Both the position numbers and the translations under genes were made by a program. A stretch of 36,771 nucleotides of DNA. Source: Chloroflexota bacterium (GTDB lineage: Bacteria > Chloroflexota > Limnocylindria > Limnocylindrales > CSP1-4). Positions 8,671 to 31,936 of the stretch are shown piece by piece. Under the pieces are notes generated by a model, which did not search any database, was not told the DNA's origin, and worked only from the letters and a program-made list of their open reading frames with translations. Location: assembly GCA_003152165.1 (NCBI GenBank), contig PLZO01000119.1:1-36771 (forward strand), read 5' to 3'. Position 1 is the first letter of the stretch. Every line of letters begins with the position of its first letter.

Positions 8671-8690
8671 ATCGCCCTCATCGAGCGCTG

Positions 8691-8720: not shown

Positions 8721-8736
8721 AGCTCGGGCGGGGTCG

Positions 8737-9813: not shown

Positions 9814-9838
9814 TCCGTCCAAGACAGGAGAATCAGGC

Positions 9839-11827: not shown

Positions 11828-11877
11828 AACCGTCCAGGCGCCAGGCAGGTTCTTGTGCGCACCGACCGAGGTCGTTC

Positions 11878-12762: not shown

Positions 12763-12776
12763 GCCGAGGAGCACGA

Positions 12777-15620: not shown

Positions 15621-15643
15621 GAGTGGCCGGCCGCGCCGGACTC
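15621..15643. terminator. Possible hairpin between convergent genes
   Basis: GAGTGGCCGG (15621-15630) can pair with CCGGACTC (15636-15643), leaving a two-base bulge and a five-base loop. It fills the short gap between two genes that point at each other, which is a usual place for a bidirectional terminator. No T-tract is seen on either side, so support is modest. Confidence 0.3.
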
Positions 15644-17396
15644 AGCGGTGCGAGCAGACCACATCGACCAGGGCGGGCCGGCCCTCCTCCATGACGATCT
15701 TCGCCGCCCTGCGGACGGCGTCCCCGATCGCGTCCGGGTCCTCGATCGGCCCCTCGGCGTGCCACCCGAACGACCGGGCCAGCGCGGCGAAGTCAGGCGG
15801 CGGGTCCTCGATCGCGACGCCGACATGGGCCTTGGCCAGGTCCGATCCGCGGTGCTTCGCCATGTGGATCTGGTGATCCCAGTCGTTGTAATACGCCCGG
15901 TTGTTGTACATCACGACGAGCATCGGGATCCGGTTGGCGGTGGCGATCCAGAGCGCTGCCGCATCGAACAGCAGGTCGCCATCGGGCTGGAGGTTGACGA
16001 CGAGCTTGCCCATATCGCGATGGGCCAGCGCCACGCCAAGGGACAGCCCGATCTGAGTCGCCGTCCCGAGGCTCTTGCCGGCGTGTCGGTAGGGGCGGTC
16101 GAAGTCCCATAGGCGGGTCGCCCAGCCGTCCGCGGTGCCCGCGGTGAGCACCCAGTCGTAGTTGCGGATCGCCTCCCAGACCTCGGCGGCCAGGCGCGGC
16201 GGGGAGACCGGGCGCTCGTCACGGCGTTTCTCCGCCTCCGCCGCCCAGTCTGCAAGCCGCTGCTCGTGGAGTTCGGCAAGCGCGCCTCGGCGCGCCTCTC
16301 GCTCGGCGGCCCGGGCAGGTGAGTCCATGGCCACCAGCACCTGGATCTGCTCGATGATCTGCGGCAGGACGACGGAGGTGTCGGCGGTGATGGCGATATC
16401 GGTCACCGGCAGCGCTCCATGGTGGTGGGACCAAGACGACGTGTGCAGCTCGTTGAAGCCGATGTCGATGACCCGGACTCCTGGAGCCAGGCGCGATCGG
16501 ACGTTCCGGGTGCTCTGCTCAACCTCCATCGTGAACCGGGAGGCGTCCTTGACGTCGAGCAGGAGAATCACGTCCGCGTCCGCGACGGCGTCGGACTCGG
16601 TGACGTTGAGACGGTGGCGGTTCGGCGCATTGAGCCGGTCTTCCATATCGATGATCCCCGCGCCGACGACCTCGGCCAAGGTCGGGATCCAGCCGAATGC
16701 CCGCGGGTCGCGGCCGGCATAGGAGGCCAGGATCAACGGTCGCGCCGCATCGCCCAGGGCACGGACGGCGGTCGCGAGGGCAGCCGGGTCTGCGCCCATC
16801 CTGCTGGCCGGTCCGACACGATCCCAGGCGATCCCCTCGATCGGCCCCTCGAGCCTGCGTTCCTGGAGGTCGGCGTCGAGGCCGATGTAGACCGGCCCGG
16901 CCGGCTCCGTCTCGGCCACACGACGGGCGCGGGCGAACGCCTCGGGCATCGCGGCGACCGAGGCCGGCTGGTCATCCCACTTCGTGAAATCGCGCACCGC
17001 GTTGCCCTGGATGTTCGAGGTGTGGACCCAGTCGATCCACGGCCGCCGTCGGGTCGTGTCCATCGGACCGGCGCCGCCGAACACGAGGACGGGGGTGCGA
17101 TCGACATAGGCATTGAAGATCCCCAGGCTGCCGTGGAGAAGCCCGACCGTGTCATGCAGGACCGCCGCCATCGTCTTGCCGGATGCCTTGGTATACCCGT
17201 GGGCGATCTGGACCGCCAGCTTCTCATGCGGGCAGAGGATTATCTCCGGGGCGCCGAGGCGGTTGACGAGCGAGTCATGCAGGCCCCGGAAGCTGGCTCC
17301 GGGATTCAACGTTACGTACGGGATCTCGAGTCCCCGCATCAGGTCGACCATGACGTCTGACCCGTATCGGGGCGCCTCCGGCTTTGCCACGTCCAC
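15642..17396 (-). CDS. Thiamine-diphosphate enzyme (benzoylformate decarboxylase/acetolactate synthase-like)
   Basis: The 584-residue protein has the three-domain layout of this family. The catalytic glutamate sits in ILCPHEKLAVQIAHGYTKAS (about residues 54-73). A central domain runs from about 200 to 350. The C-terminal domain holds the ThDP/metal motif: LQPDGDLLFDAAALWIATAN followed by MYNNRAYYNDW (the GDG...NN pattern). It probably decarboxylates a 2-oxo acid, but carboligation is possible. The start is a GTG at 17396 with GAGG 5 bases upstream. It is divergent from the ornithine-cyclodeaminase-like gene, with a shared control region between them. Confidence 0.85.
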   Translation of the reverse strand: MDVAKPEAPRYGSDVMVDLMRGLEIPYVTLNPGASFRGLHDSLVNRLGAPEIILCPHEKLAVQIAHGYTKASGKTMAAVLHDTVGLLHGSLGIFNAYVDRTPVLVFGGAGPMDTTRRRPWIDWVHTSNIQGNAVRDFTKWDDQPASVAAMPEAFARARRVAETEPAGPVYIGLDADLQERRLEGPIEGIAWDRVGPASRMGADPAALATAVRALGDAARPLILASYAGRDPRAFGWIPTLAEVVGAGIIDMEDRLNAPNRHRLNVTESDAVADADVILLLDVKDASRFTMEVEQSTRNVRSRLAPGVRVIDIGFNELHTSSWSHHHGALPVTDIAITADTSVVLPQIIEQIQVLVAMDSPARAAEREARRGALAELHEQRLADWAAEAEKRRDERPVSPPRLAAEVWEAIRNYDWVLTAGTADGWATRLWDFDRPYRHAGKSLGTATQIGLSLGVALAHRDMGKLVVNLQPDGDLLFDAAALWIATANRIPMLVVMYNNRAYYNDWDHQIHMAKHRGSDLAKAHVGVAIEDPPPDFAALARSFGWHAEGPIEDPDAIGDAVRRAAKIVMEEGRPALVDVVCSHR

Positions 17397-17630: not shown

Positions 17631-18605
17631 ATGGTCCGAGTCCTGACAAGCCGAGACCTCGAGGGGAACGTGTCGTTCCTCGAGATCGTCGATGCTGTCG
17701 AAGCGTCGTATCGAGCGGCCGGCAACGGCCGGCTGGTCGGACGGCCGAGGACCTTCCTCACAGCGCCCGGCACGCATACGACCTTGAGCGTCAGCCCGGC
17801 TATCAGCGCTGAGCTGGGCATCGGGGTCTTCCTCTACACCGGGGGCAATAAGGGCAGCGGTCTCCCGCAGAAGCTTGCAGTCCTGTTCGATCCGACCGAT
17901 GGTGGGCTCAGCTGCCTGATCGAGTCCGACTGGCTAAGCTGGGCCCGCACAGGCGCGTCGAGCGCCGTCGCCACCAGGCATATGGCGCGCCCGGACGCGT
18001 CCGTCGTCGGCATTATCGGCTCGGGGAAGCAGGCGCGGAGCCAGCTGCTGGCGATCGCGACCGCCCGACCGATCGAGCGGGCCTTCGTTTTCAGTCTCCG
18101 AGAGGATCGGCGCAGGCGGTACGCGCTCGAGATGTCGGAGATGTGCGGATTTCCGGTCCTGGCGGTCGACGACGCCGCGGAGATCCTCGCATCGTCCGAC
18201 ATCATCTGCACCGCGACGACATCGCGCGAACCGGTCTTCGATGGCCGGGCGCTCAGGCCGGGAACGCATGTCAATGCCATCGGTCAGCACTATTCGGACC
18301 GCCGCGAGCTCGATACGGAGACGATCAGGCGCAGCCATGTCGTGGTCGACGACCTCGAGAGCGCATTCGCGGACTACGGCGAGCTGTGCATGCCGCTCGA
18401 ACGCGGTGAGATCGCCCGGGACCACATCCAGGCGAGCTTGGCCGATATCGTGATCGGGACCCGGACCGGTCGGCCGTCGTCCAGCGCGATCACCGTCTTC
18501 CTGTCGGGTGGCATCGCCGGGGAATACCTGGCCGCAGCGAGGGCGGTCTGGCAGATCGCCCAGGCACGAGGGCTGGGGATCGAGATCGACCTGGGGCACG
18601 CCTGA
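17631..18605 (+). CDS. Ornithine cyclodeaminase/mu-crystallin family protein
   Basis: The 324-residue protein has the family's Rossmann motif VGIIGSGKQARSQLLAIATA near residue 125, a substrate-domain start (EIVDAVEASYRAAGNGRLVG), and late motifs IICTATTSREPVFDGRAL and HVNAIGQHYSDRREL. Members use NAD(H) in cyclodeaminase, ketimine reductase or alanine/imino-acid dehydrogenase reactions; which applies here cannot be told. The ATG is preceded by GGAGGGG. The neighbouring 2-oxo-acid enzyme makes an imine or amino-acid substrate plausible. Confidence 0.82.
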   Translation: MVRVLTSRDLEGNVSFLEIVDAVEASYRAAGNGRLVGRPRTFLTAPGTHTTLSVSPAISAELGIGVFLYTGGNKGSGLPQKLAVLFDPTDGGLSCLIESDWLSWARTGASSAVATRHMARPDASVVGIIGSGKQARSQLLAIATARPIERAFVFSLREDRRRRYALEMSEMCGFPVLAVDDAAEILASSDIICTATTSREPVFDGRALRPGTHVNAIGQHYSDRRELDTETIRRSHVVVDDLESAFADYGELCMPLERGEIARDHIQASLADIVIGTRTGRPSSSAITVFLSGGIAGEYLAAARAVWQIAQARGLGIEIDLGHA

Positions 18606-18653: not shown

Positions 18654-18722
18654 GACCGTGGCCGAGCCGACCGTCTGGCGTCGGGTGCGGATGACCGCGA
18701 CGGTTGGAGGACGTTACGCCGA

Positions 18723-19202
18723 GTGAGCGCTGACGTATCCGTGCAGATCCGGTTCGACGTCAACGGAACCGGCCAAGACTTGCGGGTCGACCCCGAGCGT
18801 CGCCTCGTCGATCTCCTCCGCGAGGATCTCGATATGACCGGGACGAAGGAGAGCTGCGCGGTCGGCGTGTGCGGTGCCTGCTCGGTCCTCGTCGACGGGG
18901 AGCTGCTCTCGGCGTGCCTGATACCGGCGGTCATGGTGGACGGCCGGTCGATCACAACGATCGAGGGGATCGCCGGCCCGAACGGCGAACTTTCGGCCAT
19001 GCAGGAGGCGTTCATCGTCGAGGGTGGCCTGCAGTGCGGCGCCTGCACACCCGGCCAGGTCGTCGCGGCGACGGCACTCCTGCGCGAGCAACCGGATCCC
19101 TCCGACGCCGAGATCCGCGACTGGATGGCCGGCAACCTGTGCCGTTGCACCGGTTACGCGGGCATCATCCGGGCGATCCGCTCGGCCGCGGCACCCGGCT
19201 GA
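18723..19202 (+). CDS. Molybdenum hydroxylase 2Fe-2S subunit, operon 3
   Basis: The 159-residue subunit shows CAVGVCGACSVLVDG and a following SAC for the first 2Fe-2S cluster, and LQCGACTPGQVV plus NLCRCTGYAGII for the second. These are the standard CGAC/CRCTGY forms, unlike the CSYC/CRCGSY forms in operons 1 and 2, so this is a separate lineage. I chose the GTG at 18723, where the conserved region begins; GGAGG lies 12 bases upstream, slightly far. A start at 18615 would lie upstream of the promoter. The large subunit follows 2 bases after the stop. Confidence 0.88.
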   Translation: MSADVSVQIRFDVNGTGQDLRVDPERRLVDLLREDLDMTGTKESCAVGVCGACSVLVDGELLSACLIPAVMVDGRSITTIEGIAGPNGELSAMQEAFIVEGGLQCGACTPGQVVAATALLREQPDPSDAEIRDWMAGNLCRCTGYAGIIRAIRSAAAPG

Positions 19203-19204
19203 CG

Positions 19205-21535
19205 ATGAGCGACCACGATGCACGCGGGCTCGGTACGCCACCGGACGCCGCCGAGGCGACCGCCCTGGCCAAACCAGAGCGCAGAGATGACGGGCCCGGC
19301 AAGGTCACCGGTGCGACGCGCTACGCCGGCGACCGGAAGATGCCCGGCGCGCTCTGGGCGGCCTTCCTTGGCAGCCAGGTCCCGCACGGTCGCATCCGCT
19401 CCGTCGATGCCTCCCTGGCGCGAACGCTGCCCGGCGTCCGGGCGGTCCTGACCGGCGCCGACGTCGAGGGGGTCCTGTTCGGGCGACGGCTCCAGGATCG
19501 CCCCGTCCTGGCCTGGGACCGCGTCCGCTTCGTCGGCGACCGACTGGCGGCGGTGGCGGCCGACACACTCGAGGCCGCCGAGGCCGCCGTCGCCGCGATC
19601 GAGGTCGATATCGAGGAGTTGGAACCGCTGTTCGACCTCGAGTTGGCCGTCCGCGACGGCGCCCCTGTCCTGCATCCAGAAGCGGGTGGCTACGTCTACA
19701 TGGGTGGCACCCGGCCACCCGTCGCCCATCCGAACGTCCAGGGTCGTACGCTCAAGCAGCGCGGCGAGGAGGACATCGAGGCCGTCTTTGCCCGTGCCCC
19801 GCGCGTCTTCGAGCACGAGTTCACGACGCCGCGCCACCATGCGGGCTACATCGAGCCGCACGCCACGCTGGTCTGGATCGACGACGGCGACATCGTCCAC
19901 GTGGTGACAACGAATAAGACGCCATTCTCGCTGCGCAGCCAGATGGCGACGTCGCTCGGCCTCCCTCCGGCCCAGATCGAGATCGAGGCTGGTGTGATCG
20001 GCGGCGACTTCGGCGGGAAGGGCTACTCGGTCGACGAGTTCGCCTGCTACTTCCTTGCCCGGGCGACCGGCCGGCCGGTGCGGGCCGTGACTCGCTATGC
20101 GGACGAGCTCTCCGCCACCAACGTGCGTCATGCCGCCCGGCTGCGGTTGCGGACCGCGGTCGACGCCGACGGGCGCTTGCTGGCCCACCAGGCGGACATC
20201 CTGTTCGACGGCGGAGCCTACGCGTCGGCCAAGCCGCTCCCGCACCTCATGCTCGCCGCCGGTAACGCGACGATGTCGCCGTACCGGATCCCGAACGTCC
20301 GGATCGAGGCCCGGACGATCTACACGAACACCGTTCCGGCCGGCCATATGCGCTCCCCGGGCGAGGTCCAGGCGCTGTTCGCCGGCGAGTCGCACCTCGA
20401 CGCAATCGCTCGCGAGCTGGGCGAGGACCCGCTCGAGTTTCGGCTACGCAACGTCGTCCGGGACGGCGAGGTCGGGACGCTCGGGGACCACTTCCGCGAG
20501 GCCCGCGGAGCCGAGGTGCTCGAGACCGTCCGCTCGGCGATGGACTGGGGGCGCCCGCTGCCGGCAGGTCGCGGACGAGGCCTCGCGTTCGGCGTACGGC
20601 ATGTCGGCGGGGGCGCGCTCACCTTGGGTCTCCGGCTCGCGCCCGACGGGCGGATCGAGGTCTTCACTGCGCTGCCCGACCAGGGTGGCGGCCAGACGAT
20701 GGTCATCAAGCGGGTCCTGGCCCTGGTCGCCTCGATCGACGAATCGCGGATCAGCGTAGTCCGCCGGACGACCGCCGGTGCCCCGTTCGACCCCGGCGTG
20801 GGCGGGAGCCGGGTGACCCACATCGCGAGCCGTGCCGCGGAGATGCTCGGCGAGCAGCTCCGAGACTGGATCGACGAACGGCTGCCGCGCGCCTTGCCGG
20901 ACGCGCCGGCTGGCGCGGAGTTGCGCGACGACGCCATCGTCGACCCGGCGACCGGGCACATCCTGCTCGGGTTCGACGAGCTCATCGGCCGGCTCGTCCC
21001 GGCCGGCGAACCGCTGGAACTCACCGCCACCTTCGACGCCGGGACGCACGGGCCCGATGAGTCCGGTGACAACGACTTCGCCGCCTGCGCAGTCGAGGTC
21101 TCGGTCGACGCGGACACCGGGACGATCACGATCCACGACGCGGTCCTAGTCGTGGATGTCGGCACCGTTATCAATCCGGTGGCCCACGCCGGGCAGCTCG
21201 TCGGCGGCTTCGCCTTCGGGGTCGGCGCAGCGCTGATGGAGGAGCTCATCGTTGAGGACGGGGTGATGGCCGGCCTGAGCCTCGGCGAGACCCGCCTGCC
21301 GACGATCCGCGACGTCCCGGCCCTGCGCCTGGTGCTGCTGCCGACGACGGTCGGTCCCGGCGCCTTTGGGGCCAAGATGGCCGGCGAGCTGTCCAATGCG
21401 CCCGTCGCGCCGGCGATCGCCAACGCCGTTGCCGACGCGGTCGGCATTCGACCGACCCAGCTGCCGATGACCCCAGAGCGGATCCTCGCGGCGCTCAGGG
21501 CATGGGCGGGCGCGGAGGCGAACCCGCCGACGTGA
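19205..21535 (+). CDS. Molybdenum hydroxylase large subunit (aldehyde oxidase/isoquinoline oxidoreductase type), operon 3
   Basis: The 776-residue catalytic subunit starts with the usual DGPGKVTGATRYAGD, absent in the other two large subunits. It then shows GVIGGDFGGKGYSVDEFACY, the pocket loop GHMRSPGEVQALFAGE, LPDQGGGQTMV (the MGQG position) and the catalytic glutamate in AKMAGELSNAPVAPAI at about residue 728. The AYRCSFR cysteine of CO dehydrogenase is absent. No FAD subunit is encoded in this operon. It may borrow a FAD subunit from operon 1 or 2, or donate electrons by another route, as enzymes without FAD do with cytochromes. coxG follows after a transporter remnant. Confidence 0.88.
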   Translation: MSDHDARGLGTPPDAAEATALAKPERRDDGPGKVTGATRYAGDRKMPGALWAAFLGSQVPHGRIRSVDASLARTLPGVRAVLTGADVEGVLFGRRLQDRPVLAWDRVRFVGDRLAAVAADTLEAAEAAVAAIEVDIEELEPLFDLELAVRDGAPVLHPEAGGYVYMGGTRPPVAHPNVQGRTLKQRGEEDIEAVFARAPRVFEHEFTTPRHHAGYIEPHATLVWIDDGDIVHVVTTNKTPFSLRSQMATSLGLPPAQIEIEAGVIGGDFGGKGYSVDEFACYFLARATGRPVRAVTRYADELSATNVRHAARLRLRTAVDADGRLLAHQADILFDGGAYASAKPLPHLMLAAGNATMSPYRIPNVRIEARTIYTNTVPAGHMRSPGEVQALFAGESHLDAIARELGEDPLEFRLRNVVRDGEVGTLGDHFREARGAEVLETVRSAMDWGRPLPAGRGRGLAFGVRHVGGGALTLGLRLAPDGRIEVFTALPDQGGGQTMVIKRVLALVASIDESRISVVRRTTAGAPFDPGVGGSRVTHIASRAAEMLGEQLRDWIDERLPRALPDAPAGAELRDDAIVDPATGHILLGFDELIGRLVPAGEPLELTATFDAGTHGPDESGDNDFAACAVEVSVDADTGTITIHDAVLVVDVGTVINPVAHAGQLVGGFAFGVGAALMEELIVEDGVMAGLSLGETRLPTIRDVPALRLVLLPTTVGPGAFGAKMAGELSNAPVAPAIANAVADAVGIRPTQLPMTPERILAALRAWAGAEANPPT

Positions 21536-22107: not shown

Positions 22108-22563
22108 GTGATCCTCGATCAGAAGGTCGTCGTCCAGGCGGCCCCGGACAAGGTCTGGGAGTTCCTCATGGACATTCCGGCGGTCAGCGCATGCGTGCCC
22201 GGCGTCGAATCGTTCGAGAAGATCGACGATGACACGTTCCTCGGCACGCTCAAGGTCAAAGTCGGACCGATCGGCGTCAAGCTGAACGGCAAGGTGATCG
22301 TCGTCGAGCGGGACCGCGAGAACTACCGTTCGCGGATGGACGTCCAGGCGGCCGAGAAGCGCCTCAACAGCGCCGTCTCCGCCCACGCTACCCTGACCCT
22401 CGTGCCGCGCTCTGCGACGGAGACGGAGGTCCAGATCCACACCGAATCGTCGATCCTCGGCAAGCTCGGGGAGTTCGGGCAGGCGGTTATGCGCCGGAAG
22501 GCCGACCAGATCGTCGCCGAGTTCGCAAAGAACATGGCCTCTACGATCGGCGCCTCCAGCTGA
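22108..22563 (+). CDS. coxG: CoxG family SRPBCC protein
   Basis: The 151-residue protein belongs to the CoxG/SRPBCC superfamily: APDKVWEFLMDIPAVSACVP, the PGVESFE segment, GTLKVKVGPIGVKLNGKVIV, and AEKRLNSAVSAHATLTLVP. In CO-oxidising bacteria CoxG helps anchor the hydroxylase to the membrane; this one lacks an obvious C-terminal membrane helix and ends AEFAKNMASTIGASS. The start is GTG with AAGGAG 8 bases upstream. It probably serves the molybdenum hydroxylases of this island. A decayed paralogue lies at 35450-35692. Confidence 0.86.
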   Translation: MILDQKVVVQAAPDKVWEFLMDIPAVSACVPGVESFEKIDDDTFLGTLKVKVGPIGVKLNGKVIVVERDRENYRSRMDVQAAEKRLNSAVSAHATLTLVPRSATETEVQIHTESSILGKLGEFGQAVMRRKADQIVAEFAKNMASTIGASS

Positions 22564-22892: not shown

Positions 22893-24278
22893 CTACTTCG
22901 CAGCCGTGGCACCCTGGACGACCGGACGGACCATCCGGCCGGTCGGCTTGCCGACGAGCTCGCCGTCGCGCATGACGATCCGACCGCGGACGATCGTGGC
23001 GACTGGCATGCCCTTGGTCTTGCGGCCGTCGAACGGCGTGACGTGGTTCTTGCTGTGGAGCTCGTCATCGCGGATGACGCCTTCCTTGTCGAGATCGATG
23101 ATCGTCAGGTCGCCGTCCGAGCCGATGGCGATTGTGCCCTTCTGGGGGTAGATATCCCAGGTCTTGGCAGGGCCCTCGGAGGTGGCTCGGACGAGCTGCT
23201 GGAGCGTCATCCGACCGGTGTGGACGCCGTTGGTGAGGAAGAACCGGACGCTCGTCTCGACGCCGGGGAAACCGGAGATCGCCTTCCAGATGTCGTCGTT
23301 GAGCTTCTCCTCCGCGGTGTGCGGCGAATGGTCCGTGGCGATCTGGTTGACCCGGCCGTCGTTCAGTCCTTTGAGCAGGTAGTCGCCGTGGCCCTCGCTC
23401 CCGTAGCGGACAGGAGGGTTCATCCGGAGACGCGGGCCCAAGGTGGCCATCTCCTCGGCCGTGAGGAAGACGTAGTGGGCGCCGGTCTCGCACGTGACGT
23501 CGACGCCCTTGGCGCGCCATTCGTCGATCATGTCGAGGCCTTCCTTGGACGACAAATGGAAGATGTGGATCTTCGTCCCGATGTGCTTCGCGTAGAGGCC
23601 CATCCGCTGGATGGACTCGACCTCAGCGAGCGCGGGGCGCGAGTCGACGTGCGCGAGCGCGTCGGTCCGGCCAGCCGCCTTCATCTGCCGGATCAGGTGC
23701 TGCATGATCTCGTTGTTTTCGGCGTGGAAGCCGATCCGTAGCCCGGTCTCGGCGATCTCGCGGAGACCGTCGAGCATCATGCCGTCATCGGGCGCCGGGA
23801 TATTGCCGATCGTCTCGCCGAGGAAACACTTGAAGCCGACGACACCGGCCTCGGCCAGTGACTTGAGGGCAGGTACGCTGTCCTGGACCAGCAGGCCGAT
23901 GATCCCAAAGTCGACAAACGACTTCTCCTCGGCGAGCTTCTTCTTGAGCTCGACGCCAGCAACCGTGTCGGTCTTGGGGTTCGTGTTCGGCATGTCGATG
24001 ACCGTCGTCACGCCGCCCATGACGGCGGCCGTCGACCCAGTCGTCCAGTCCTCCTTGTATTCGAAGCCGGGCTCGCGGAAGTGGACGTGGCCGTCGATGA
24101 CGCCGGGCACGACGTACTTGCCGGAGGCGTCGTACTCCTCCTTCGCGGTCAGGCCGAGCTCGCCCGGAGCCGCGATCGAGACGAACTTGCCACCGTCCAC
24201 GGCGAGGTCCGCCTGGAACGTGGCGTCCGCGGTGACGACGGTTCCGTTCTTGACGATCAGATCGACGGGATTTGCCAT
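22893..24278 (-). CDS. Cyclic amidohydrolase (allantoinase/dihydropyrimidinase/dihydroorotase family)
   Basis: The 461-residue metal-dependent hydrolase opens cyclic amides. It shows the metal-binding HxH in VIDGHVHFREPGFEYKEDW, the bridging lysine candidate in VVGFKCFLGETIG, histidines in IGFHAENNEIM and IHIFHLSSKEGLD, and the aspartate in QIATDHSPHTAEEK. The start ATG at 24278 begins the typical NPVDLIVKNGTVVTAD; longer frames upstream overlap the UbiD gene. It lies 85 bases downstream of ubiD in the same direction and is probably co-transcribed. No allantoicase is near, so ring opening of another cyclic amide or hydantoin is as likely as purine breakdown. Confidence 0.87.
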   Translation of the reverse strand: MANPVDLIVKNGTVVTADATFQADLAVDGGKFVSIAAPGELGLTAKEEYDASGKYVVPGVIDGHVHFREPGFEYKEDWTTGSTAAVMGGVTTVIDMPNTNPKTDTVAGVELKKKLAEEKSFVDFGIIGLLVQDSVPALKSLAEAGVVGFKCFLGETIGNIPAPDDGMMLDGLREIAETGLRIGFHAENNEIMQHLIRQMKAAGRTDALAHVDSRPALAEVESIQRMGLYAKHIGTKIHIFHLSSKEGLDMIDEWRAKGVDVTCETGAHYVFLTAEEMATLGPRLRMNPPVRYGSEGHGDYLLKGLNDGRVNQIATDHSPHTAEEKLNDDIWKAISGFPGVETSVRFFLTNGVHTGRMTLQQLVRATSEGPAKTWDIYPQKGTIAIGSDGDLTIIDLDKEGVIRDDELHSKNHVTPFDGRKTKGMPVATIVRGRIVMRDGELVGKPTGRMVRPVVQGATAAK

Positions 24279-24363
24279 TGGTTGTCCAGTTCTCCTGCTG
24301 ATTGGCTTTGCGTGACGAACGTTGAGTGGGGACTTGGCTGGGTCGTTGCGTCCGCCGGTCGGG

Positions 24364-25860
24364 CTACGGGCCAGCAGGGCCTCGGGCGTCTGGATCAAGG
24401 ATCCAGCCCCAGCGGTCCTTCGTCGCCCGCGACATCTCGGTGGTGACGACCGGCTCGGCAAAACGGTCCTTCCATTCCCACGGCTTCGTCGCATCGATCA
24501 GGAGGCGCGAATTGAAGCCGCGCTCGTCGGGATGGATGGCCGGGTCGAGCGGCCCGCTCCAGGCTCGCTTGATGATCGTGATGTCGCGGTCCGGGTCGCA
24601 GCGGGTCATTACCGCCCACATGACGTCGTCGAGGCTGGTAATGTCGATGTCAGGGTCGACGACGATCGCGATCCGACCCGCGTAGGCCGACGTCCCGGTC
24701 TGGCTGCCGACCATGAGCGCCTGGGTGGCGTGACCGGCATAAGCTTGGTCGACGGCAATGACCGTCATCATCCGGTTGCCGGCCTCGGGCGGACACCACA
24801 CGCCGGTCACACGCGGCACGCCGGCCTGGCGGAGCTGCGTCTCGATGAGCGCCGACTTCAGGTATGCGAGGAAGCGGTTGTCCTCGTGCGGCGGCTTGCC
24901 CTGCGGGCAGCCGAGCAGGATCGGATCATTGCGGTGGTATATGGCGGCGACGTGGATGACCGGGGTCTGGTGCTCGCCGCTCGCGTAATAGCCCATCCAT
25001 TCACCGTACGGACCCTCGTGGTGGGTCTCGTCCGGGTACATCCAGCCCTCGATGACGATCTCGGCGGTCGCCGGGAAGGGGAGCCCGGTGTGTTTGCCCC
25101 GCACGACGTCGATCGCCTCGTCGCGGATACCCCCGGCCCACGCCATCTCGCTCATGCCGTAGGGGATGCCTTCGGCGCATGCCGACATGAAGAGCAGGGG
25201 ATCGGCGCCGACGACGACGACGATCGGACACGGCTGGCCACGGTCGAAGTACTTCTGGCGGATCAGCTTGCCGTGCTTGCCCGGGCTGATGTACACGCCC
25301 AGCTCGTTACGGCTGAAGACCTGGTTGCGGTACGTGCCCAGGTTGACCCAGTCGGAGTCGGGATCCTTCAGGATGTTCATGCTGGCGGTCCCGATGAACC
25401 GGCCGCCGTCCTGCGGGTGCCACGTCGGCACCGGGAAGGCCTCGAGGTCGACGTCGTCGCCCTCGAGGATGTTCTCGAAGACGGGGCCCGTCTCGACCTC
25501 GCGCGGGGGGATCGGAGTCAGGCCGTCGAGGACGCCGCGCCAGAATCGGAACAGGCCATCGTGGTTGCCCTCTGACGGGGGAAGGTTGAGGGTGATCGCC
25601 TGGCGGGCGGTATTGCCGCTGCAATTGACGATGACGCGACGGCCTGCCGGGTATCCGGGGATTTCGTCGAACAGGACGGCCGGTGAATCTTCGTTGTGGT
25701 CGAGCATCTCGGTGATCTCACCGATCTCGGACTGCCAGCCGGCACCACGGACGACCCGCAGCTCACCTTGCTCCTCGGCACGGGCGATCCATTCGCGGGT
25801 GTCGCGCCACGGGGCCAGACGGCCCGTCGCGGTGCCAGTCGGCTGATCGCTGATCGCCAC
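24364..25860 (-). CDS. UbiD family prenyl-FMN-dependent decarboxylase
   Basis: The 498-residue enzyme removes (or adds) a carboxyl group on an aromatic, heteroaromatic or unsaturated acid using prenyl-FMN. The conserved Arg-Glu-Glu triad can be located in LGTYRNQVFSR, EIVIEGWMYP and EGPYGEWMGYYASGEHQTPV. Other family marks are PQDGGRFIGT and SMNILKDPDSDWVN. I chose the GTG at 25860 because GAGGAAGAGGA lies just upstream; an ATG at 25896 would add a basic stretch that overlaps that ribosome site. UbiX (8020-8670) would provide its cofactor. The substrate is unknown; phenolic, furan, pyrrole or pyridine acids are all possible. Confidence 0.92.
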   Translation of the reverse strand: MAISDQPTGTATGRLAPWRDTREWIARAEEQGELRVVRGAGWQSEIGEITEMLDHNEDSPAVLFDEIPGYPAGRRVIVNCSGNTARQAITLNLPPSEGNHDGLFRFWRGVLDGLTPIPPREVETGPVFENILEGDDVDLEAFPVPTWHPQDGGRFIGTASMNILKDPDSDWVNLGTYRNQVFSRNELGVYISPGKHGKLIRQKYFDRGQPCPIVVVVGADPLLFMSACAEGIPYGMSEMAWAGGIRDEAIDVVRGKHTGLPFPATAEIVIEGWMYPDETHHEGPYGEWMGYYASGEHQTPVIHVAAIYHRNDPILLGCPQGKPPHEDNRFLAYLKSALIETQLRQAGVPRVTGVWCPPEAGNRMMTVIAVDQAYAGHATQALMVGSQTGTSAYAGRIAIVVDPDIDITSLDDVMWAVMTRCDPDRDITIIKRAWSGPLDPAIHPDERGFNSRLLIDATKPWEWKDRFAEPVVTTEMSRATKDRWGWILDPDARGPAGP

Positions 25861-25916
25861 GCTTGTCCTCTTCCTCGACCGTCGTCCGGCACCCATGATC
25901 GGAGCGGCGCGAATGT

Positions 25917-25930
25917 CACTGTATGCAGTG
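25917..25930. promoter_or_regulatory. Palindromic operator upstream of ubiD
   Basis: CACTGTATGCAGTG has perfect five-base arms (CACTG/CAGTG) and contains TGTATGCA, the clearest version of the motif found through the island. It lies 57 bases upstream of the chosen ubiD start. A TACAGT on the minus strand within it could be a -10, but no good -35 is found. Confidence 0.5.
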
Positions 25931-26013
25931 GTATCTTATCGGCCGCAGGGCGTCTGGGTCAATGCCGAGTCGACGCTCGCCAGTGCCACGTCGATCGCCC
26001 TCGGCGGAGTTCG

Positions 26014-26290
26014 ATGGACCTCAGCCCGGTTGTCCTGCTCGTCCTGGTCGCCTCCATGTTCGGGCCGCCTTCGTCAATGGGACGATCGGTTTCGGTTTCG
26101 CGCTCCTCGCCGTCAAAGTTCCTGGCCGTGATCCTGGGTACCAGGGAGGAGATCATCGTCCTGACCCTCCTGACGCCGGCGGTGCAGCGGCCTCCAAGTG
26201 GGGCACCACCGGGCCGACCGGGGGACTGCCAAGCGGCTCCGTGTGCTCATCGTGGCGGCCCTCGTCGGGACAGCCATCGTTGGGATGTTC
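26014..26290 (+). pseudogene. TauE/SafE family permease remnant
   Basis: Reading across three frames gives VVLLVLVAS, AAFVNGTIGFGFALLAVK, ILGTREEIIVLTLLTPAV, and GTAKRLRVLIVAALVGTAIV. This is the N-terminal half of a TauE/SafE (sulfite exporter-like) membrane protein with the FVNGTIGFG motif. At least three frameshifts and an abrupt end at about 26290 make it non-functional. Confidence 0.7.
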
Positions 26291-26700
26291 TCGATCCGGA
26301 CCTGGAGCCGGCCGAAGTCAGCCTCGACCTCGACCTCGTGGGTGTTCTGCCTGATGGACGGGTCGGCGATGACCCGGACCTCCGTCCGGTCGAAGCCGAT
26401 CCCGGTGATGCTCACGGCGACGACGGCGTTGATATTGGCCGGGAAGAGCTTCCTTGCCGCCCGTGCCGGCCGGCATACACCGCGCGCGGCTCGCCGGAGC
26501 GGATGACCTCGGCCGCATCGTCGTGATCGAGCAGGGTGTGGGGCGGCTTCCGGACAGAATGGACGACCCGATCCAGGTCGCCGACGGCGGCCGCGGAGAT
26601 CGCGTCGAGCGCCCCAGACGGTATCCCCAGGCGGCTTGCGCCCGCGGATACCGCTCGTTGGACCTCGGCCAACAGCTCCGCGTCGGCCGTTGTCGACTCC
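26285..26700 (-). pseudogene. L-aspartate dehydrogenase (NadX, DUF108) remnant
   Basis: The minus strand reads AELLAEVQRAVSAGASRLGI, PSGALDAISAAAVGDLDRVV, VIRSGEPRAVYAG and, after a frameshift near 26470, RKLFPANINAVVAVSITGIG, FDRTEVRVIADPSIRQNTHE and VEVEADFGRLQVRIENIP. This is the C-terminal catalytic part of NadX-type aspartate dehydrogenase. The NAD-binding half is missing. It ends against the TauE/SafE remnant. A minus-strand segment further upstream (26700-26778, starting MAEPVSDPYLPVQDK) is not recognised. Confidence 0.75.
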
Positions 26701-26844
26701 CGTGCGCGGGGCCGGATTGAGGTCGGTGTACGCTTTGTCCTGCACCGGCAGATACGGATCCGAGACCGGCTCCGCCATCGTCGCTGCCTCCTCGAATCGT
26801 CATCCGTCGTCGCCGAGGCCGCCGCGAGGTCTTCGCTGCACCGT

Positions 26845-26901
26845 TTGCCGCCCGGGGGATCCTGGCGCTAGGATAGTGTGCGAGTGTAGGCGCTCGCACA
26901 C
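26845..26901 (+). promoter_or_regulatory. Promoter and nine-base inverted repeat before the lyase gene
   Basis: TTGCCG (26845-26850) and TAGGAT (26869-26874) are 18 bases apart. GTGTGCGAG (26876-26884) and CTCGCACAC (26893-26901) follow as perfect arms around an eight-base centre that contains TGTAGG. The ribosome site CGGAG (26901-26905) begins at the last base of the right arm. An operator at the start site, or an mRNA hairpin limiting translation, would both fit. The half-site differs from TGTAYGCA, so it may answer to another regulator. Confidence 0.55.
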
Positions 26902-26910
26902 GGAGTTTTG

Positions 26911-27819
26911 ATGGCGCGACTTACCGCGGGACCCGCCGATGGCAGCCCCGGCGCGACCCCGGGCCGGCGCCTGCGCGTGCTGCTCGACCGGCCGGAACCG
27001 TTGGTCCTGCCCGGCTGCAGCGATGCCCTGACCGCGCGCCTCGCCGTCGCGGCCGGCTTCGAGGCCGTCTATGCGACGGGAGCTGGGATCGCCAATACCC
27101 TGCTCGGCGTGCCCGATGTCGGGCTGACGACCATGACCGAGCTCGTAGACCAGGTCGCCCGGATCGCCGCCGCGGTCAATGTCCCGATCGTGGCTGACCT
27201 CGATACGGGGTTCGGCAACGCCATCAACGCCCGCCGTGCGGTCACCGAATTCGAGCGGGCCGGTGTCGCCGGGATCCAGATCGAGGATCAGGTATTCCCG
27301 AAGCGCTGCGGCCACTTCGGCGGCAAGGAGATCATTCCGCTGGCGGAGATGCTGGCCAAGCTCCAGGCCGTGCTGGAGGCGCGCCGCGATCCGGCCCTCG
27401 TCGTGATCGCCCGCACGGACGCGCTCGCCACCGATGGCTTCGACGCTGCGATCGAGCGCGGTCGGGCCTTCGCCGAGGCCGGTGCCGACATCGTCTTCAT
27501 CGAGGCGCCGGTCCTCCTCGACGAGCTGAAGGCCCTGCCCGGCCGCGTTCCGGCGCCGCTCCTCGCGAACATGGTCGAGGGCGGCCGAACGCCCTTGCTC
27601 GGAGCAGACGAGCTCGGTGCCATGGGCTACCGGATCGTCCTCTTCGCGAATACAGCCATGCGCGTGGGTGCGCGCGCGATGCGCGACGCCCTGACCGAGC
27701 TTCGGGCGACCGGCGATAGCCGGCCGTTGCAGGATCGGATGCTGAACTGGGAGGACCGGCAGGCGCTCGTCGGTCTGCCAGAGATCGAAGCCCTCGAAGC
27801 GCGCTATCGAGTCGACTGA
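26911..27819 (+). CDS. Isocitrate lyase/PEP mutase family C-C lyase (2,3-dimethylmalate or methylisocitrate lyase type)
   Basis: The 302-residue enzyme has the superfamily motifs: VLPGCSDALTARLAVAAGFE, VYATGAG, IVADLDTGFGNAINARRAV, GVAGIQIEDQVFPKRCGHFG with the catalytic KRCGH loop, then VIARTDALA and ANMVEGGRTPLL. The intact KRCGH cysteine argues for a lyase that splits a malate-type acid, as in methylisocitrate lyase or 2,3-dimethylmalate lyase, rather than for a PEP mutase or hydrolase without it. GGAG lies 5 bases before the ATG. The PrpF-type isomerase follows after 46 bases in the same direction, so the two probably act in sequence. Confidence 0.85.
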   Translation: MARLTAGPADGSPGATPGRRLRVLLDRPEPLVLPGCSDALTARLAVAAGFEAVYATGAGIANTLLGVPDVGLTTMTELVDQVARIAAAVNVPIVADLDTGFGNAINARRAVTEFERAGVAGIQIEDQVFPKRCGHFGGKEIIPLAEMLAKLQAVLEARRDPALVVIARTDALATDGFDAAIERGRAFAEAGADIVFIEAPVLLDELKALPGRVPAPLLANMVEGGRTPLLGADELGAMGYRIVLFANTAMRVGARAMRDALTELRATGDSRPLQDRMLNWEDRQALVGLPEIEALEARYRVD

Positions 27820-27865
27820 AGCGGACCGACGAGCGTTGCGCTTGTGGCCGGTCGGAGGTGTGAAC

Positions 27866-29038
27866 GTGTTAAGTGATTCGGTCCCGGTGCGCTGCTCCAT
27901 CCTGCGCGGTGGGACGAGCAAAGCCGTCTTCTTCCTCGCCAACGATCTGCCGCCGGACCGCCCCTCGATGGAGCCGCTCCTGCTGAGCGTCTTCGGCAGC
28001 CCGGACATCCGGCAGATCGACGGCCTCGGCGGAGCGACCTCGCAGACGAGCAAGGCGGCGATCATCGGCGCCCCAAGTCACTCCGGCGCCGATGTCGACT
28101 ACACGTTCGCCCAGGTGAGCGTCGGCGAGCAGCTGGTTGACTGGGGCGGCAACTGCGGCAACATCTCGGCCGCCGTCGGGCCGTTCGCCATCGACCAGGG
28201 CTTCGTCCGGGCCGCCGAGCCGGTCACGACCGTCCGCGTCCACAACACCAACACCGGCAAGATCATCCTCGAGCACGTGCCCGTGCGCGGCGGCCGCGCC
28301 GCCTCGGAGGGCGATTACGCGGTCCCCGGTGTGCCCGGGACAAGCGCCCGCATCCTGCTCGAGTTCAGCGATCCGGCCGGGTCGCTCACCGGCAAGCTGC
28401 TGCCGACGGACCGGCCGTGCGACGAAGTCAAGCTCGACGACGGGCGGACCTTCCAGGTCTCGATCGTCGACGCGGCAAACCCGGTCGTCTTCGTCGCCGC
28501 GGAGGCCCTCGGCTTCAGTGGGACTGAGTTGCCGCTCGACATCGAGGCCGCCACCGCGGCGACCGACACCCTGGAGGCGATCCGCGGCGTCGTCGCGGAG
28601 TGGCTGGGGCTCGTGCCGGACCGGCACGACGCGACGAAGGTGACACCGGGCCTGCCGAAGGTCGGGTTCGTGGCTCGCCCGATGGCCTACCGGACCACCG
28701 CCGGCGTCGACGTTCCGGAGAGCTCGGTCGACCTCACTGGCAGGCTCATGTCGATGCAGACTGCCCATCGCTCCTACATGGTGACCGGCGCGATCGCGAC
28801 CGCGGCCGCGGCCTTCATCGACGGCACGATCGTCAACGCCCTAGTCCGACCGATCGGCCAGCGACCGATCGCCGAGAGCATCCGGATCGGCCATCCCTAC
28901 GGCGTGATGGAGGCCGTCATCAACGGCGATGGACCCGCGGCCGCTCCGGTCATCCGGGGTGTCGCCATCGGTCGGACGGCTCGCCACATCCTCGACGGCC
29001 AAGTCTGGGTCCCGCGCGGGTTGTTGCCGGCCGGCTGA
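27866..29038 (+). CDS. PrpF family isomerase (methylitaconate isomerase/4-oxalomesaconate tautomerase type)
   Basis: The 390-residue protein shares the diaminopimelate-epimerase-like fold of PrpF. Visible are CSILRGGTSKAVFFLANDLP, the QIDGLGGATSQTSKAAII segment, VDWGGNCGNISAAVGPFAI with the reactive cysteine, and near the end IRIGHPYGVMEAV. Known members move a double bond or tautomerise: AcnD partner PrpF, methylitaconate isomerase Mii, and 4-oxalomesaconate tautomerase GalD. The start is the GTG at 27866 with GGAGG 7 bases upstream. Pairing with a KRCGH lyase mirrors Mii and dimethylmalate lyase in nicotinate fermentation, but no dimethylmaleate hydratase is seen here. Confidence 0.85.
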   Translation: MLSDSVPVRCSILRGGTSKAVFFLANDLPPDRPSMEPLLLSVFGSPDIRQIDGLGGATSQTSKAAIIGAPSHSGADVDYTFAQVSVGEQLVDWGGNCGNISAAVGPFAIDQGFVRAAEPVTTVRVHNTNTGKIILEHVPVRGGRAASEGDYAVPGVPGTSARILLEFSDPAGSLTGKLLPTDRPCDEVKLDDGRTFQVSIVDAANPVVFVAAEALGFSGTELPLDIEAATAATDTLEAIRGVVAEWLGLVPDRHDATKVTPGLPKVGFVARPMAYRTTAGVDVPESSVDLTGRLMSMQTAHRSYMVTGAIATAAAAFIDGTIVNALVRPIGQRPIAESIRIGHPYGVMEAVINGDGPAAAPVIRGVAIGRTARHILDGQVWVPRGLLPAG

Positions 29039-29059: not shown

Positions 29060-30079
29060 TCAGTAGGTGTCGAACATCCGCTGGATCTCCGTCACATCAC
29101 TCGTCTTCGTCAGACCGAGGGCAAGCAGGATGCGAGCCTTCCACGGCTGAAGGTTGTCGGCGGCCGACCAGCCCTTGCGCCGGAGCCCGGGACTGGTGAC
29201 GGTCCGGCCAGATCCCACCCGAGTGCCCTGGACGACGACCACGCCGGCCGCCGCCGCCCGGTCGAGGGCCGCGTCCTCCGCCGGGGTCGGGCGACCCGCG
29301 CCGGTCCCGGCGCTAACGATCCCGCGCGTGCCCGCGGCGACCGCAGCGTCGATCATCACGCCGTCCGCGCCGAGGTAGGAGACGACGACATCTACCCTGG
29401 GGAGGGCGTCGATATCGGTCAGATCGAATTCCGTCTCGGTCGTGTGCGTCCGCAGCGGCCGGTGATAGAAGAGGACGCGACCGTCGTTGTCGGCATACCC
29501 GAGCGGTCCCAGATCGCGGCCCTGGAAGGTCTCGACGCGGTAGGTCGCGGTCTTCGTCACGTCACGTGCGGAGAGGATGGTGTCGTTGAGGACGATCAGG
29601 ACACCCATCCCGCGCGACGCTTCGGTGGCCGCCACCCGGACGCCGCTGAGCAGGTTCAGATAGCCGTCGGCCGAGATCGCCGATGACGGTCGCATCGCGC
29701 CGACGATGACGACCGGCCGATCGCGCTTGAGGGTCAGGTGGAGGAAGTAGGCGGTCTCCTCGAGCGTGTTCGTGCCGTGGGTGATGACCACCCCATCGGC
29801 CCGGTCCTCGTCGAAGATCTGGTGGATGAGTGCGACCAGGTCGAACAGGTCCTGGTTCTTGATCGACTGGCTGGGGAGCCGCCGGAACGGGATCTCCTCG
29901 ACGTCCGCGATCGAGGCCAATTCCGGGACGCGGGCGACGAGCTCGCCGTCCTCAAGACGCTTGTTGGCCTCGATGTAGAAGGCCAGGTCGAGCCGGTCGA
30001 CACCGACCGAATCGATCGTCCCGCCAGTGAAGATCAGGGCAACCCGCGGACGCTGCTCGATGTGACTCACTCCCGACAT
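29060..30079 (-). CDS. Asparaginase/glutaminase family protein (L-asparaginase type II-like)
   Basis: The 339-residue protein has both threonine active-site signatures: VALIFTGGTIDSVG near residue 15 and GVVITHGTNTLEETAYFLHL near residue 100, followed by VIVGAMRPSSAISADGYLNL. These fit homologues that hydrolyse asparagine or a related amide. There is no signal peptide, so it is cytoplasmic. GAGG precedes the ATG by about 6 bases. It lies downstream of gntR in the same direction (118-base gap). In this setting it may hydrolyse a catabolic amide intermediate rather than asparagine (inference). Confidence 0.87.
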   Translation of the reverse strand: MSGVSHIEQRPRVALIFTGGTIDSVGVDRLDLAFYIEANKRLEDGELVARVPELASIADVEEIPFRRLPSQSIKNQDLFDLVALIHQIFDEDRADGVVITHGTNTLEETAYFLHLTLKRDRPVVIVGAMRPSSAISADGYLNLLSGVRVAATEASRGMGVLIVLNDTILSARDVTKTATYRVETFQGRDLGPLGYADNDGRVLFYHRPLRTHTTETEFDLTDIDALPRVDVVVSYLGADGVMIDAAVAAGTRGIVSAGTGAGRPTPAEDAALDRAAAAGVVVVQGTRVGSGRTVTSPGLRRKGWSAADNLQPWKARILLALGLTKTSDVTEIQRMFDTY

Positions 30080-30197: not shown

Positions 30198-30884
30198 TCA
30201 CGCGAGCTGCTTCTCGAATTCCTGGAGCTGCAGTCGGACGAGGTACTCGCGAGCCGCCGTGAGGTGGGAGCGCGACGCGGTCTCCGCGTCCTCCGGGTCG
30301 TGGGCCTCGAGGGCCGCGACGATGGCCCGGTGCTCGGCAAGGACGTGGTCGACGCGCTCGGGACTGGCGAACGGCAACGTCGTGAAGCGGCGAATGAACT
30401 CGCGCAGGTTGCGCCCTAGTTGTTCGAGCATCGGATTGCCCGCAGCGGCGTAGATCACGTCGTGGAAATGGGTGTTCGCCACGATGACCTGCTCGCGCCG
30501 ACCGTTGGCGATCGCCTCCTCCATCGATTCGACGACGACGCGCAGCCGGCCGAGCTCGGACGGCGTGATCCGATGGGCTGCCAGGCGGGCGGCCAGCCCA
30601 TCGAGCGCCTCGCGAACGATGAACACATTTTCGATCTCGCGAGCGTCCGGAGCATGGACGACCGTGCCCCGTGCCGGGTCGGCGAAAACGAGGTTCTCGA
30701 CAGCGAGGCGCTTGAGCGCCTCTCGCACCGGGGTACGGCTGACGCTGAACTCGGCCGCGATCGACAACTCGACGAGCCTCATGTCCGGCGCCAACGCTCC
30801 GGAGATGATCTGCTCCTTGAGCGATTGATAGACAAACTCGCTTCTCTGCAAGCCGTCTTTACGGGTCACATGGTTTGTACGCAT
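30198..30884 (-). CDS. GntR family regulator with FCD ligand domain
   Basis: The 228-residue regulator has an N-terminal winged helix (FVYQSLKEQIISGALAPDMR, then LSIAAEFSVSRTPVREALKR, about residues 17-70) and a C-terminal all-helical FCD domain. In the latter, FIVREALDGLAARLAA, NTHFHDVIYAAAGNPMLEQL and VDHVLAEHRAIVAALEAHD hold the metal/ligand residues. FCD regulators usually repress catabolic genes until an organic acid binds. The start codon overlaps a TGTACGCA site, and similar sites lie upstream of most operons in this island, so it probably controls itself and them (inference). Confidence 0.9.
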   Translation of the reverse strand: MRTNHVTRKDGLQRSEFVYQSLKEQIISGALAPDMRLVELSIAAEFSVSRTPVREALKRLAVENLVFADPARGTVVHAPDAREIENVFIVREALDGLAARLAAHRITPSELGRLRVVVESMEEAIANGRREQVIVANTHFHDVIYAAAGNPMLEQLGRNLREFIRRFTTLPFASPERVDHVLAEHRAIVAALEAHDPEDAETASRSHLTAAREYLVRLQLQEFEKQLA

Positions 30885-31078
30885 CGCCTATCCATTAGCA
30901 GGACCTGCTGGCGTTACGGCATATCCCCGTATGCAACTGATCCCCCGCAGTATAGGCGACTTTCCCCAGACGAACACCCGCTTTCCCGTCGTCCCTGCGG
31001 GCCTGGCGAGGAGCCGTGCGTGCTTGGCGTCGCCCGACGGTGGGCTATATCCGCCTGGGATTCGCTTGCATACTGTTG
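30876..31078. promoter_or_regulatory. Intergenic control region of gntR and the hydratase-family gene
   Basis: Three sites of the shared motif lie in this divergent region: TGTACGCA across the gntR start (30876-30883), CGTATGCAACTG (30928-30939), and CTTGCATACTG (31065-31075), the last 36 bases before the hydratase-family ATG. The second and third contain GTATGCAA in opposite orientations. Clear -35 boxes were not found. The layout suits autoregulation of gntR and control of the neighbouring gene. Confidence 0.5.
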
Positions 31079-31111
31079 CCGTCACGCAGCGCAAAATGGA
31101 GGCGACTCTCG

Positions 31112-31936
31112 ATGGCGAACAGCTATAGCGGTCTCGTGGTGTCTCAATCCGGCCAGGTTGCGACGATCGGGATGCGCCCATCGGGTGACGTCCAGTACGT
31201 ACGCGGAGCCGACGATCCGCTCCCGGTCTTCTTCCCCAAGCACAAGCAGCTCGGCCTGGCTCTCGAGGAGCTGCGCGCCGACAACTCGATCCGGGTGATC
31301 GTGCTGACCGGGCTAAGTGACGTCTTCTTCGTGCCACCCAGCGGGGCGCCCGGGCCGAAGTCGCGCCATAACCCGGGCGAGGATTGGGACCTGACCGTCG
31401 GCCTGGCACGAACGCTCCAGGCATTCATCGAGATCGAGAAGCCGATCATTGCCCGGGTCAACGGCGATGCGATCGGGTTCGGGTCCAGCCTGGCCTTTGC
31501 CTCCGACTTCATCATCGCCGCCGAGGACGCCGTGATCGCCGACTACCACCTGGGCATGGGCGAGACGGGCTATGGTCGGTCTGACGTTGGAGTGGTCCCC
31601 GGCGACGGTGGCTCGGTCTTCGTGCCGATGCACATGCCGCCGGCGATGGCCAAGGAATTCCTGTTCCTGGCCCGGCCGTATACGGGCGCCGACCTGGCGG
31701 CCCTTGGGATCGTCAACCGGGCGGTGCCGCTCGCCGACCTCGACGCGACCGTCGACGAGTTCTGCCGGCGCCTGCTCCTCCGCTCGTCCCATGCGCTCGG
31801 CTTCGCCAAGCGGGTCGTCAACCGGCGGATCGCCGAAAACTTCAACCTCACCTTCGACTCGGCCTGGGCGTATGAGATGGCGAACTTCTACATGCACCTG
31901 GCCGCCACCGATGAACGGGGTCGCACGGAGTTGTGA
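31112..31936 (+). CDS. Enoyl-CoA hydratase/isomerase family protein
   Basis: The 274-residue crotonase-fold protein shows VIVLTGLSDVFFVPPSG, KPIIARVNGDAIGFGSSLAF (second oxyanion-hole segment), ASDFIIAAEDAVIADYHLGM and VVPGDGGSVFVP. It would act on a CoA thioester as hydratase, isomerase or thioesterase; the crotonase family also includes the 2-oxoglutaroyl-CoA hydrolase of furoate breakdown. The GAxxGGG loop is altered to DAIGFGSS, so hydratase activity is not assured. The ATG at 31112 has GGAGG 9 bases upstream; a longer frame from 31016 would overlap the operator. Confidence 0.85.
   Translation: MANSYSGLVVSQSGQVATIGMRPSGDVQYVRGADDPLPVFFPKHKQLGLALEELRADNSIRVIVLTGLSDVFFVPPSGAPGPKSRHNPGEDWDLTVGLARTLQAFIEIEKPIIARVNGDAIGFGSSLAFASDFIIAAEDAVIADYHLGMGETGYGRSDVGVVPGDGGSVFVPMHMPPAMAKEFLFLARPYTGADLAALGIVNRAVPLADLDATVDEFCRRLLLRSSHALGFAKRVVNRRIAENFNLTFDSAWAYEMANFYMHLAATDERGRTEL

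Follow-up and report, generated by a model that had tools for sequence, protein, structure and literature searches.

The stretch analyzed here, referred to below as the window, is a 36,771-nucleotide contig (C30) of a Limnocylindrales (Chloroflexota) metagenome genome, G000 (3.6 Mb in 177 contigs). It carries an island in which three sets of molybdenum (Mo) hydroxylase genes are found together with genes for a cyclic amidohydrolase (hereafter AmidoH), a UbiD-family decarboxylase, a lyase of the isocitrate lyase/phosphoenolpyruvate mutase (ICL/PEP-mutase) family with the motif KRCGH, and a PrpF-fold isomerase (Table 1). Families were assigned with Pfam and NCBIfam profiles and their curated cut-offs, matches to solved structures in the PDB were scored in bits, and tree groupings were evaluated by approximately unbiased (AU) tests. 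The relatives compared were G089 (contigs L007 and L169), G004, G005, and G064, and gene occurrence was surveyed in 177 genomes of the class. A preliminary description had placed an amidohydrolase, an ICL-type lyase, a PrpF-fold protein, Mo hydroxylases, and UbiD at this locus and had proposed a partial nicotinate-like route; strong Pfam and NCBIfam scores bore out the family assignments. Absent from that description were the UbiX protein, the isopentenyl-diphosphate (IPP) isomerase, the CoxG-like protein, and the thiamine diphosphate (ThDP)-dependent enzyme of the island, as well as an isochorismatase-type amidase that adjoins the lyase in relatives.

The lyase and the PrpF-fold isomerase

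The lyase and isomerase genes are adjacent, as described earlier: they lie on the same strand with their open reading frame (ORF) ends 16 nt apart, in the same order as in loci L007 and L008, and the three Mo-hydroxylase sets are located upstream. The lyase retains the catalytic residues D58, D85, D87, E115, KRCGH (121-125), R158, E188, and N210 (E. coli PrpB numbering), and the isomerase retains the lysine of TSK and the cysteine of GNCGN. Judged by sequence, the two proteins are members of the ICL/PEP-mutase and PrpF-fold superfamilies, respectively, with conserved residues intact.

An isomerase-lyase pairing is also a feature of the methylcitrate cycle (PrpC-AcnD-PrpF-lyase), and a reading of the pair as PrpB and PrpF would draw on the family names, on matches to TIGR02317 and TIGR02334, and on the related lyases carried by genuine methylcitrate operons. 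However, both profiles scored below cut-off (290 against 354 for TIGR02317, and 285 against 441 for TIGR02334), the window pair has no adjoining PrpC, AcnD, or PrpD, and AU tests rejected the grouping of the lyase with methylcitrate-operon lyases (p=0.0017) as well as with E. coli PrpB (p=0.0014). Moreover, no citrate synthase in the genome scored above the TIGR01800 cut-off, and MmgE/PrpD, present as a single copy in G000, where the ORF listing shows no neighboring methylcitrate genes, had no counterpart in G089 and G004, two genomes in which lyase and PrpF both occur. The preliminary description had allowed for a methylisocitrate lyase within a methylcitrate cycle; these results reject that alternative, which we regard as hardly credible.

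Nicotinate fermentation of the Eubacterium barkeri type shares with the window a Mo hydroxylase, a ring opener of the amidohydrolase superfamily, a PrpF-fold isomerase, and an ICL-family lyase, and at this family level the proposed resemblance held; homology to the route proper was not supported. As anchors, nicotinate clusters of Moorella (L019) and a Bacillota bacterium (L010) were chosen by gene content. In L019, the end of a Mo hydroxylase and an enamidase are followed by the reductase, the mutase, the isomerase, the lyase, and DmdAB; in both anchors, mii and dml are separated by an additional, MutL-like gene, and pairs of the Mii-Dml type were seen in Sporomusa, Desulfosporosinus, Treponema, and the deltaproteobacterium Smac51 as well. 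When the window proteins were placed in trees, 22 Dml-type lyases formed one clade (100/100), and the window lyase fell in a separate clade composed only of Limnocylindrales lyases. The isomerase likewise fell in a Limnocylindrales-only clade, outside the main Mii clade and nearest to uncharacterized acidobacterial and actinobacterial proteins. AU tests rejected neither a sister position of the lyase to Dml (p=0.28) or to a HyuAB/isochorismatase group (p=0.23), nor a sister relation of the isomerase with Mii (p=0.34) or with AcnD-linked PrpF (p=0.23); the trees did not resolve the sister group of the isomerase.

The nicotinate-route reductase and mutase, already said to be missing from the window, were missing from the whole genome. 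For 6-hydroxynicotinate reductase there was no match in G000, G089, G004, or G005 (as a control, the query found homologues at 65-67% in three genomes), and 2-methyleneglutarate mutase matched in the genome only over residues ~467-609, its B12-binding part (best E 2e-13). The search for the dimethylmaleate hydratase DmdAB returned only LeuC/aconitase-like proteins, at 28-46% identity in pieces; the one other candidate for a hydratase is the MmgE/PrpD of G000 noted above. A divergent but true nicotinate route, with the missing steps performed by other enzymes, would be consistent with the best solved relative of the isomerase, 3-methylitaconate isomerase (3g7k, 333 bits, versus 246 for PrpF and 184 for a LigU-type structure), with the sister positions left by the AU tests, and with the segment NMVEGGRTP common to the lyase and Dml. 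Against it stand trees in which the lyase is not part of the Dml clade and the isomerase not part of the main Mii clade, the missing reductase and mutase, the lack of a DmdA beyond LeuC/aconitase-like proteins, the replacement of Dml TGYGQAASH by TGAGIANTL, and a ring opener that is not an enamidase (see below); we consider such a route improbable. The island can fairly be likened to nicotinate fermentation in its logic without being a member of that route. It also shows that enzymes of the PrpF fold and of the ICL family can keep their catalytic residues while belonging to neither the methylcitrate cycle nor the nicotinate route, so that the automatic names PrpB, PrpF, and AllB would mislead here.

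The cyclic amidohydrolase

AmidoH matched Pfam Amidohydro_1 (E=1.5e-24) and contains the metal-binding motifs GHVHF, GFKCF, FHAEN, FHLSS, and TDHSPH. The preliminary description had set it beside the amidohydrolase-family enamidase of the nicotinate route, but by sequence this likeness is at superfamily level only: AmidoH matched the enamidase of the Moorella nicotinate cluster at 33% over just 54 amino acids (E=8e-6). AmidoH lacks the identity of an enamidase, the rest of the genome not having been searched for enamidases. Among solved structures, the nearest was L-hydantoinase (314 bits), followed by allantoinase (274 bits). Outside relatives of AmidoH sit with ABC transporter and acetamidase genes and, in Skermanella, with ring-opening amidohydrolase genes as well.

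If AmidoH were an allantoinase, the island might serve allantoin or purine degradation, and in keeping with this AmidoH scored just above the cut-off of the allantoinase model TIGR03178 (368 bits against 357.85) and the Mo hydroxylases resemble xanthine dehydrogenase. However, the second allantoinase model, NF004839, was not reached (391 against 631), the nearest structure was a hydantoinase, and the Mo subunits are nearer to 4-hydroxybenzoyl-CoA reductase than to xanthine dehydrogenase; for the set 1 large subunit, the best structure was 1rm6 (370 bits), versus 254 bits for nicotinate dehydrogenase (3hrd). No allantoate amidohydrolase (AllC) above cut-off was found in the genome, and no purine genes were seen in the window, contrary to the alternative foreseen earlier of an allantoinase beside purine genes. 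Such a pathway would also leave UbiD, PrpF, and the lyase unexplained, and we judge it very improbable.

UbiD and a possible cofactor supply

UbiX makes the prenylated flavin mononucleotide (prFMN) required by UbiD. Both the UbiD domain set and the flavin prenyltransferase UbiX are present in the window; UbiD, as suggested previously, would add a decarboxylation step that the nicotinate route lacks. The best structure for UbiD was 7pda (376 bits; next structure, 211 bits), which is probably the phenazine-1-carboxylate decarboxylase PhdA. With this nearest solved relative and with UbiX, the window resembles UbiD/UbiX decarboxylases of N-heteroaromatic acids; it differs from them in having an IPP isomerase next to UbiX. 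As a source of the dimethylallyl donor, the isomerase could, judging from these homologies, act together with UbiX to supply prFMN to the window UbiD. The two genes are arranged head to head with overlapping ORFs (8020-9813), possibly as a dedicated prFMN supply unit, and UbiD, UbiX, and IPP isomerase (idi) also occur together on a plasmid of Aromatoleum EbN1 (L149). No PhdC-type maturase was noticed in the window, where no search aimed at PhdC was made.

Conservation and wider gene contexts

The genes of the island are linked in three or four relatives. In G089, contig L007 carries the run CoxG-AmidoH-UbiD-RraA-like-TauE-isochorismatase-lyase-PrpF-asparaginase-GntR, with the isochorismatase gene between both ends and with the common genes that were compared 77-93% identical to their window copies, and its contig L169 carries Mo-hydroxylase genes, a ThDP enzyme, and UbiX. 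G004 has AmidoH-UbiD and lyase-PrpF-asparaginase-GntR on one contig, ~33 kb apart, and a 4.5-kb contig of G064 has a Mo hydroxylase, TauE, isochorismatase, and the lyase (71%). The asparaginase has orthologues in matching position in L007 (93%) and L008 (82%), and the G089 copy of the GntR/FCD protein, probably the regulator of the lyase-PrpF end, matched the window copy at 85% and the G004 copy at 81%. The isochorismatase-type protein of the relatives is nearest to 3ot4/3uao and to N-carbamoylsarcosine amidases. Across the 177 genomes, a close AmidoH (at least 78%) was found in four and a close lyase (at least 69%) also in four, three being common to both; a hand calculation that assumes independent genomes, which these are not, puts this co-occurrence at ~2e-5. 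The co-occurrence favors linkage, with kinship not removed and with exceptions, given below, that leave room for two modules.

Contexts outside the class were taken from 13 plasmid neighborhoods of the nearest lyases, which are not a random sample. An isochorismatase-type hydrolase lay adjacent to or near the lyase in 7 of the 13, most of them with hydantoinase/oxoprolinase, dihydroorotase-family, or MmgE/PrpD genes; methylcitrate operons accounted for four, and haloarchaeal neighborhoods with TcuA and MmgE/PrpD for two. Uncharacterized clusters combining lyase, isochorismatase, hydantoinase (HyuAB), and MmgE/PrpD occur on proteobacterial plasmids in Sulfitobacter, Roseomonas, Neorhizobium, and Methylobacterium. 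These share with the island the lyase family, a cyclic amide hydrolase, and the isochorismatase-type amidase (in the Limnocylindrales relatives), but they have HyuAB or a distant dihydroorotase-family protein together with MmgE/PrpD or LeuCD, and neither PrpF nor UbiD was seen in the stretches read. On the plasmid of Sulfitobacter S190 (L178, 9115-26200), HyuAB, isochorismatase, and lyase genes are near genes for a Mo hydroxylase, 6-hydroxynicotinate reductase, and an amidohydrolase. These plasmid contexts support, independently of the window, a link of the lyase family to cyclic amide breakdown. L178 also has UPF0280 and 'amino acid synthesis' genes; this cluster is of heterocycle type and has parts in common with nicotinate fermentation.

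A proposed pathway and its alternatives

The gene families and their linkage suggest, with about an even chance in our estimation, that the island degrades an N-containing cyclic, probably heteroaromatic, acid as one pathway. Both the type of substrate and the order of the reactions are predicted from sequence, as is the assignment of all genes to a single pathway. At least one Mo hydroxylase would oxidize ring carbons; UbiD would remove a ring carboxyl group, using prFMN from the UbiX and IPP isomerase of the island; and the hydantoinase-type AmidoH would then hydrolyze a cyclic amide or ureide to open the ring. Ammonia or a carbamoyl group would be freed by an amidase, of the isochorismatase type in the relatives and of the asparaginase type in the window, after which the PrpF-fold enzyme would shift the C=C bond of the resulting unsaturated polycarboxylate, a postulated hydratase would add water, and the KRCGH lyase would cleave the 2-hydroxy acid, yielding a 2-oxo acid together with a smaller acid. 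It is possible, and we propose this more tentatively, that Limnocylindrales thus possess an undescribed pathway in which Mo hydroxylation and prFMN-dependent decarboxylation of an N-heteroaromatic acid are coupled to ring opening of the hydantoinase type and to final isomerase and lyase steps, with a logic convergent with that of nicotinate fermentation and carried out by other subfamilies. No such cluster was described in the literature searched on UbiD, xanthine dehydrogenase, dimethylmalate lyase, and hydantoinase; subscription papers were mostly outside reach, and this is weak evidence of novelty. The conserved set of hydroxylases, self-supplied decarboxylase, ring opener, amidases, isomerase, and lyase makes up a candidate pathway that can be tested, in a Chloroflexota group known largely through metagenomes.

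Several observations weigh against a single pathway of this kind. A dedicated hydratase was not found in the genome search, no ring reductase was identified, and no intact transporter was recognized in the window; with several genes reduced to remnants, the island may have decayed in part. Moreover, the lyase of G064 is not accompanied by a close AmidoH, and G005 keeps AmidoH-UbiD-CoxG-isochorismatase without PrpF or a close lyase, which indicates that the two ends may be separate. On that account, two modules would lie side by side, one (Mo hydroxylase-CoxG-AmidoH-UbiD) acting on a ring compound and the other (lyase-PrpF-asparaginase-GntR) on an acyclic polycarboxylate or its amide. Their opposite strands, the GntR gene belonging to the second, and the distance between them in G004 agree with such a division. 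However, three of the four carriers of each carry both, the two are contiguous in G089 with the isochorismatase gene between them, and the related plasmid clusters join lyase, isochorismatase, and cyclic-amide hydrolases; we therefore treat the two-module arrangement as a serious alternative that is nevertheless somewhat doubtful. A dihydroorotase-like route to carbamoyl-aspartate, employing AmidoH, isochorismatase, and aspartate dehydrogenase, was also considered and rejected: it leaves PrpF unexplained, and the window keeps no more than a remnant of aspartate dehydrogenase, which was not seen at that place in L007.

Other features of the island and related loci

The coordinates of the features are given in Table 1.

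Table 1. Genes and gene remnants of the island in the window.
Feature	Coordinates	Strand	Basis
Mo-hydroxylase set 1, flavin adenine dinucleotide (FAD; medium) subunit	3984..4868	+	homology to FAD subunits adjoining other Mo hydroxylases
Mo-hydroxylase set 1, large Mo-cofactor subunit, 4-hydroxybenzoyl-CoA reductase/xanthine dehydrogenase type	4865..7213	+	TIGR03194 503 bits, below cut-off
Mo-hydroxylase set 1, [2Fe-2S] subunit	7210..7725	+	sequence, homologues
UbiX flavin prenyltransferase	8020..8841	-	PF02441 E=6.7e-40; NF004685 256 bits (cut-off 188)
Type 2 IPP isomerase	8737..9813	+	TIGR02151 379 bits (cut-off 281)
Frameshifted remnant, substrate-binding/4,5-dihydroxyphthalate-decarboxylase-like (name from reading, unverified)	9779..10817	+	neither piece matched in Pfam
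Alpha/beta hydrolase, enol-lactonase-like, start approximate	10828..11640	-	C-terminal part of ORF 10828-12774
Mo-hydroxylase set 2, FAD subunit, start approximate	11800..12766	+	frame reading
Mo-hydroxylase set 2, large subunit	12762..15089	+	PF02738 E=8.7e-77
Mo-hydroxylase set 2, [2Fe-2S] subunit	15086..15616	+	sequence; conserved in L169
ThDP-dependent enzyme, decarboxylase/carboligase family	15642..17396	-	PF02776/PF02775
Ornithine cyclodeaminase/mu-crystallin family protein	17631..18605	+	PF02423 E=3.2e-57
Mo-hydroxylase set 3, [2Fe-2S] subunit	18687..19202	+	PF01799 E=1e-29
Mo-hydroxylase set 3, large subunit	19208..21535	+	PF02738 E=9.3e-65
CoxG-like SRPBCC protein	22108..22563	+	PF06240 E=6.2e-21; L007 copy in matching place
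AmidoH, hydantoinase/allantoinase type	22893..24278	-	likely start MANPVDL; ORF to 24494
UbiD-family prFMN decarboxylase	24364..25896	-	PF01977 E=4.5e-66
TauE/SafE-like transporter remnant, limits approximate	25980..26290	+	read from sequence
Aspartate dehydrogenase remnant, C-terminal domain only, frame-shifted, without NAD domain	26116..26778	-	PF01958 E=1.9e-21, residues 104-173
ICL/PEP-mutase family lyase, KRCGH	26908..27819	+	E=6.6e-52; ATG at 26911 possible
PrpF-fold isomerase	27836..29038	+	PF04303 E=2.4e-119; likely start GTG near 27860
Asparaginase-family amidohydrolase	29060..30079	-	PF00710 E=4.6e-53
GntR/FCD regulator	30198..30884	-	profile match
Crotonase-family protein	31016..31936	+	PF00378 E=1.2e-27

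The alpha/beta hydrolase matched PF00561 (E=9.8e-23, residues 393-631) and scored 92 bits on TIGR02427, below the cut-off. The ThDP enzyme showed 77% identity over 230 amino acids to the G089 gene that adjoins Mo hydroxylases on L169, and the nearest structure to the ornithine cyclodeaminase/mu-crystallin family protein was a delta1-pyrroline-2-carboxylate reductase (6t3e, 207 bits). CoxG-like proteins are usually linked to Mo hydroxylases. The intergenic stretch between UbiD and the lyase holds no intact genes, only the remnants of aspartate dehydrogenase and TauE; an intact TauE (PF01925) is present in L007 and L190. Whether the crotonase-family protein belongs to the island is uncertain.

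Two further sets of related genes were seen in G000. L140 (G000:C24:52001-71878) is a second, partly broken island with PrpF fragments (67-75% identical), an amidohydrolase, Mo hydroxylases, and two isochorismatases, and an AllC-like amidase lies on its contig, C24, as does a second citrate synthase. In the third set, L141 (G000:C57:4001-22753), Mo hydroxylase genes are accompanied by a CoxG-like gene, a fragment of an amidohydrolase, and a frame-shifted UbiD that is 72-81% identical to that of the window. On a Variovorax plasmid (L151, 5146-11191), the arrangement GntR-lyase-LeuC-LeuD-PrpF with a tripartite tricarboxylate binding protein is a compact, uncharacterized isomerase/hydratase/lyase module. 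Finally, a broken, group II intron-like reverse transcriptase (1-1392) at one edge of the window and an IS30-like transposase (HTH_38, rve; 35790-36769) at the other indicate that the island is flanked by mobile elements.

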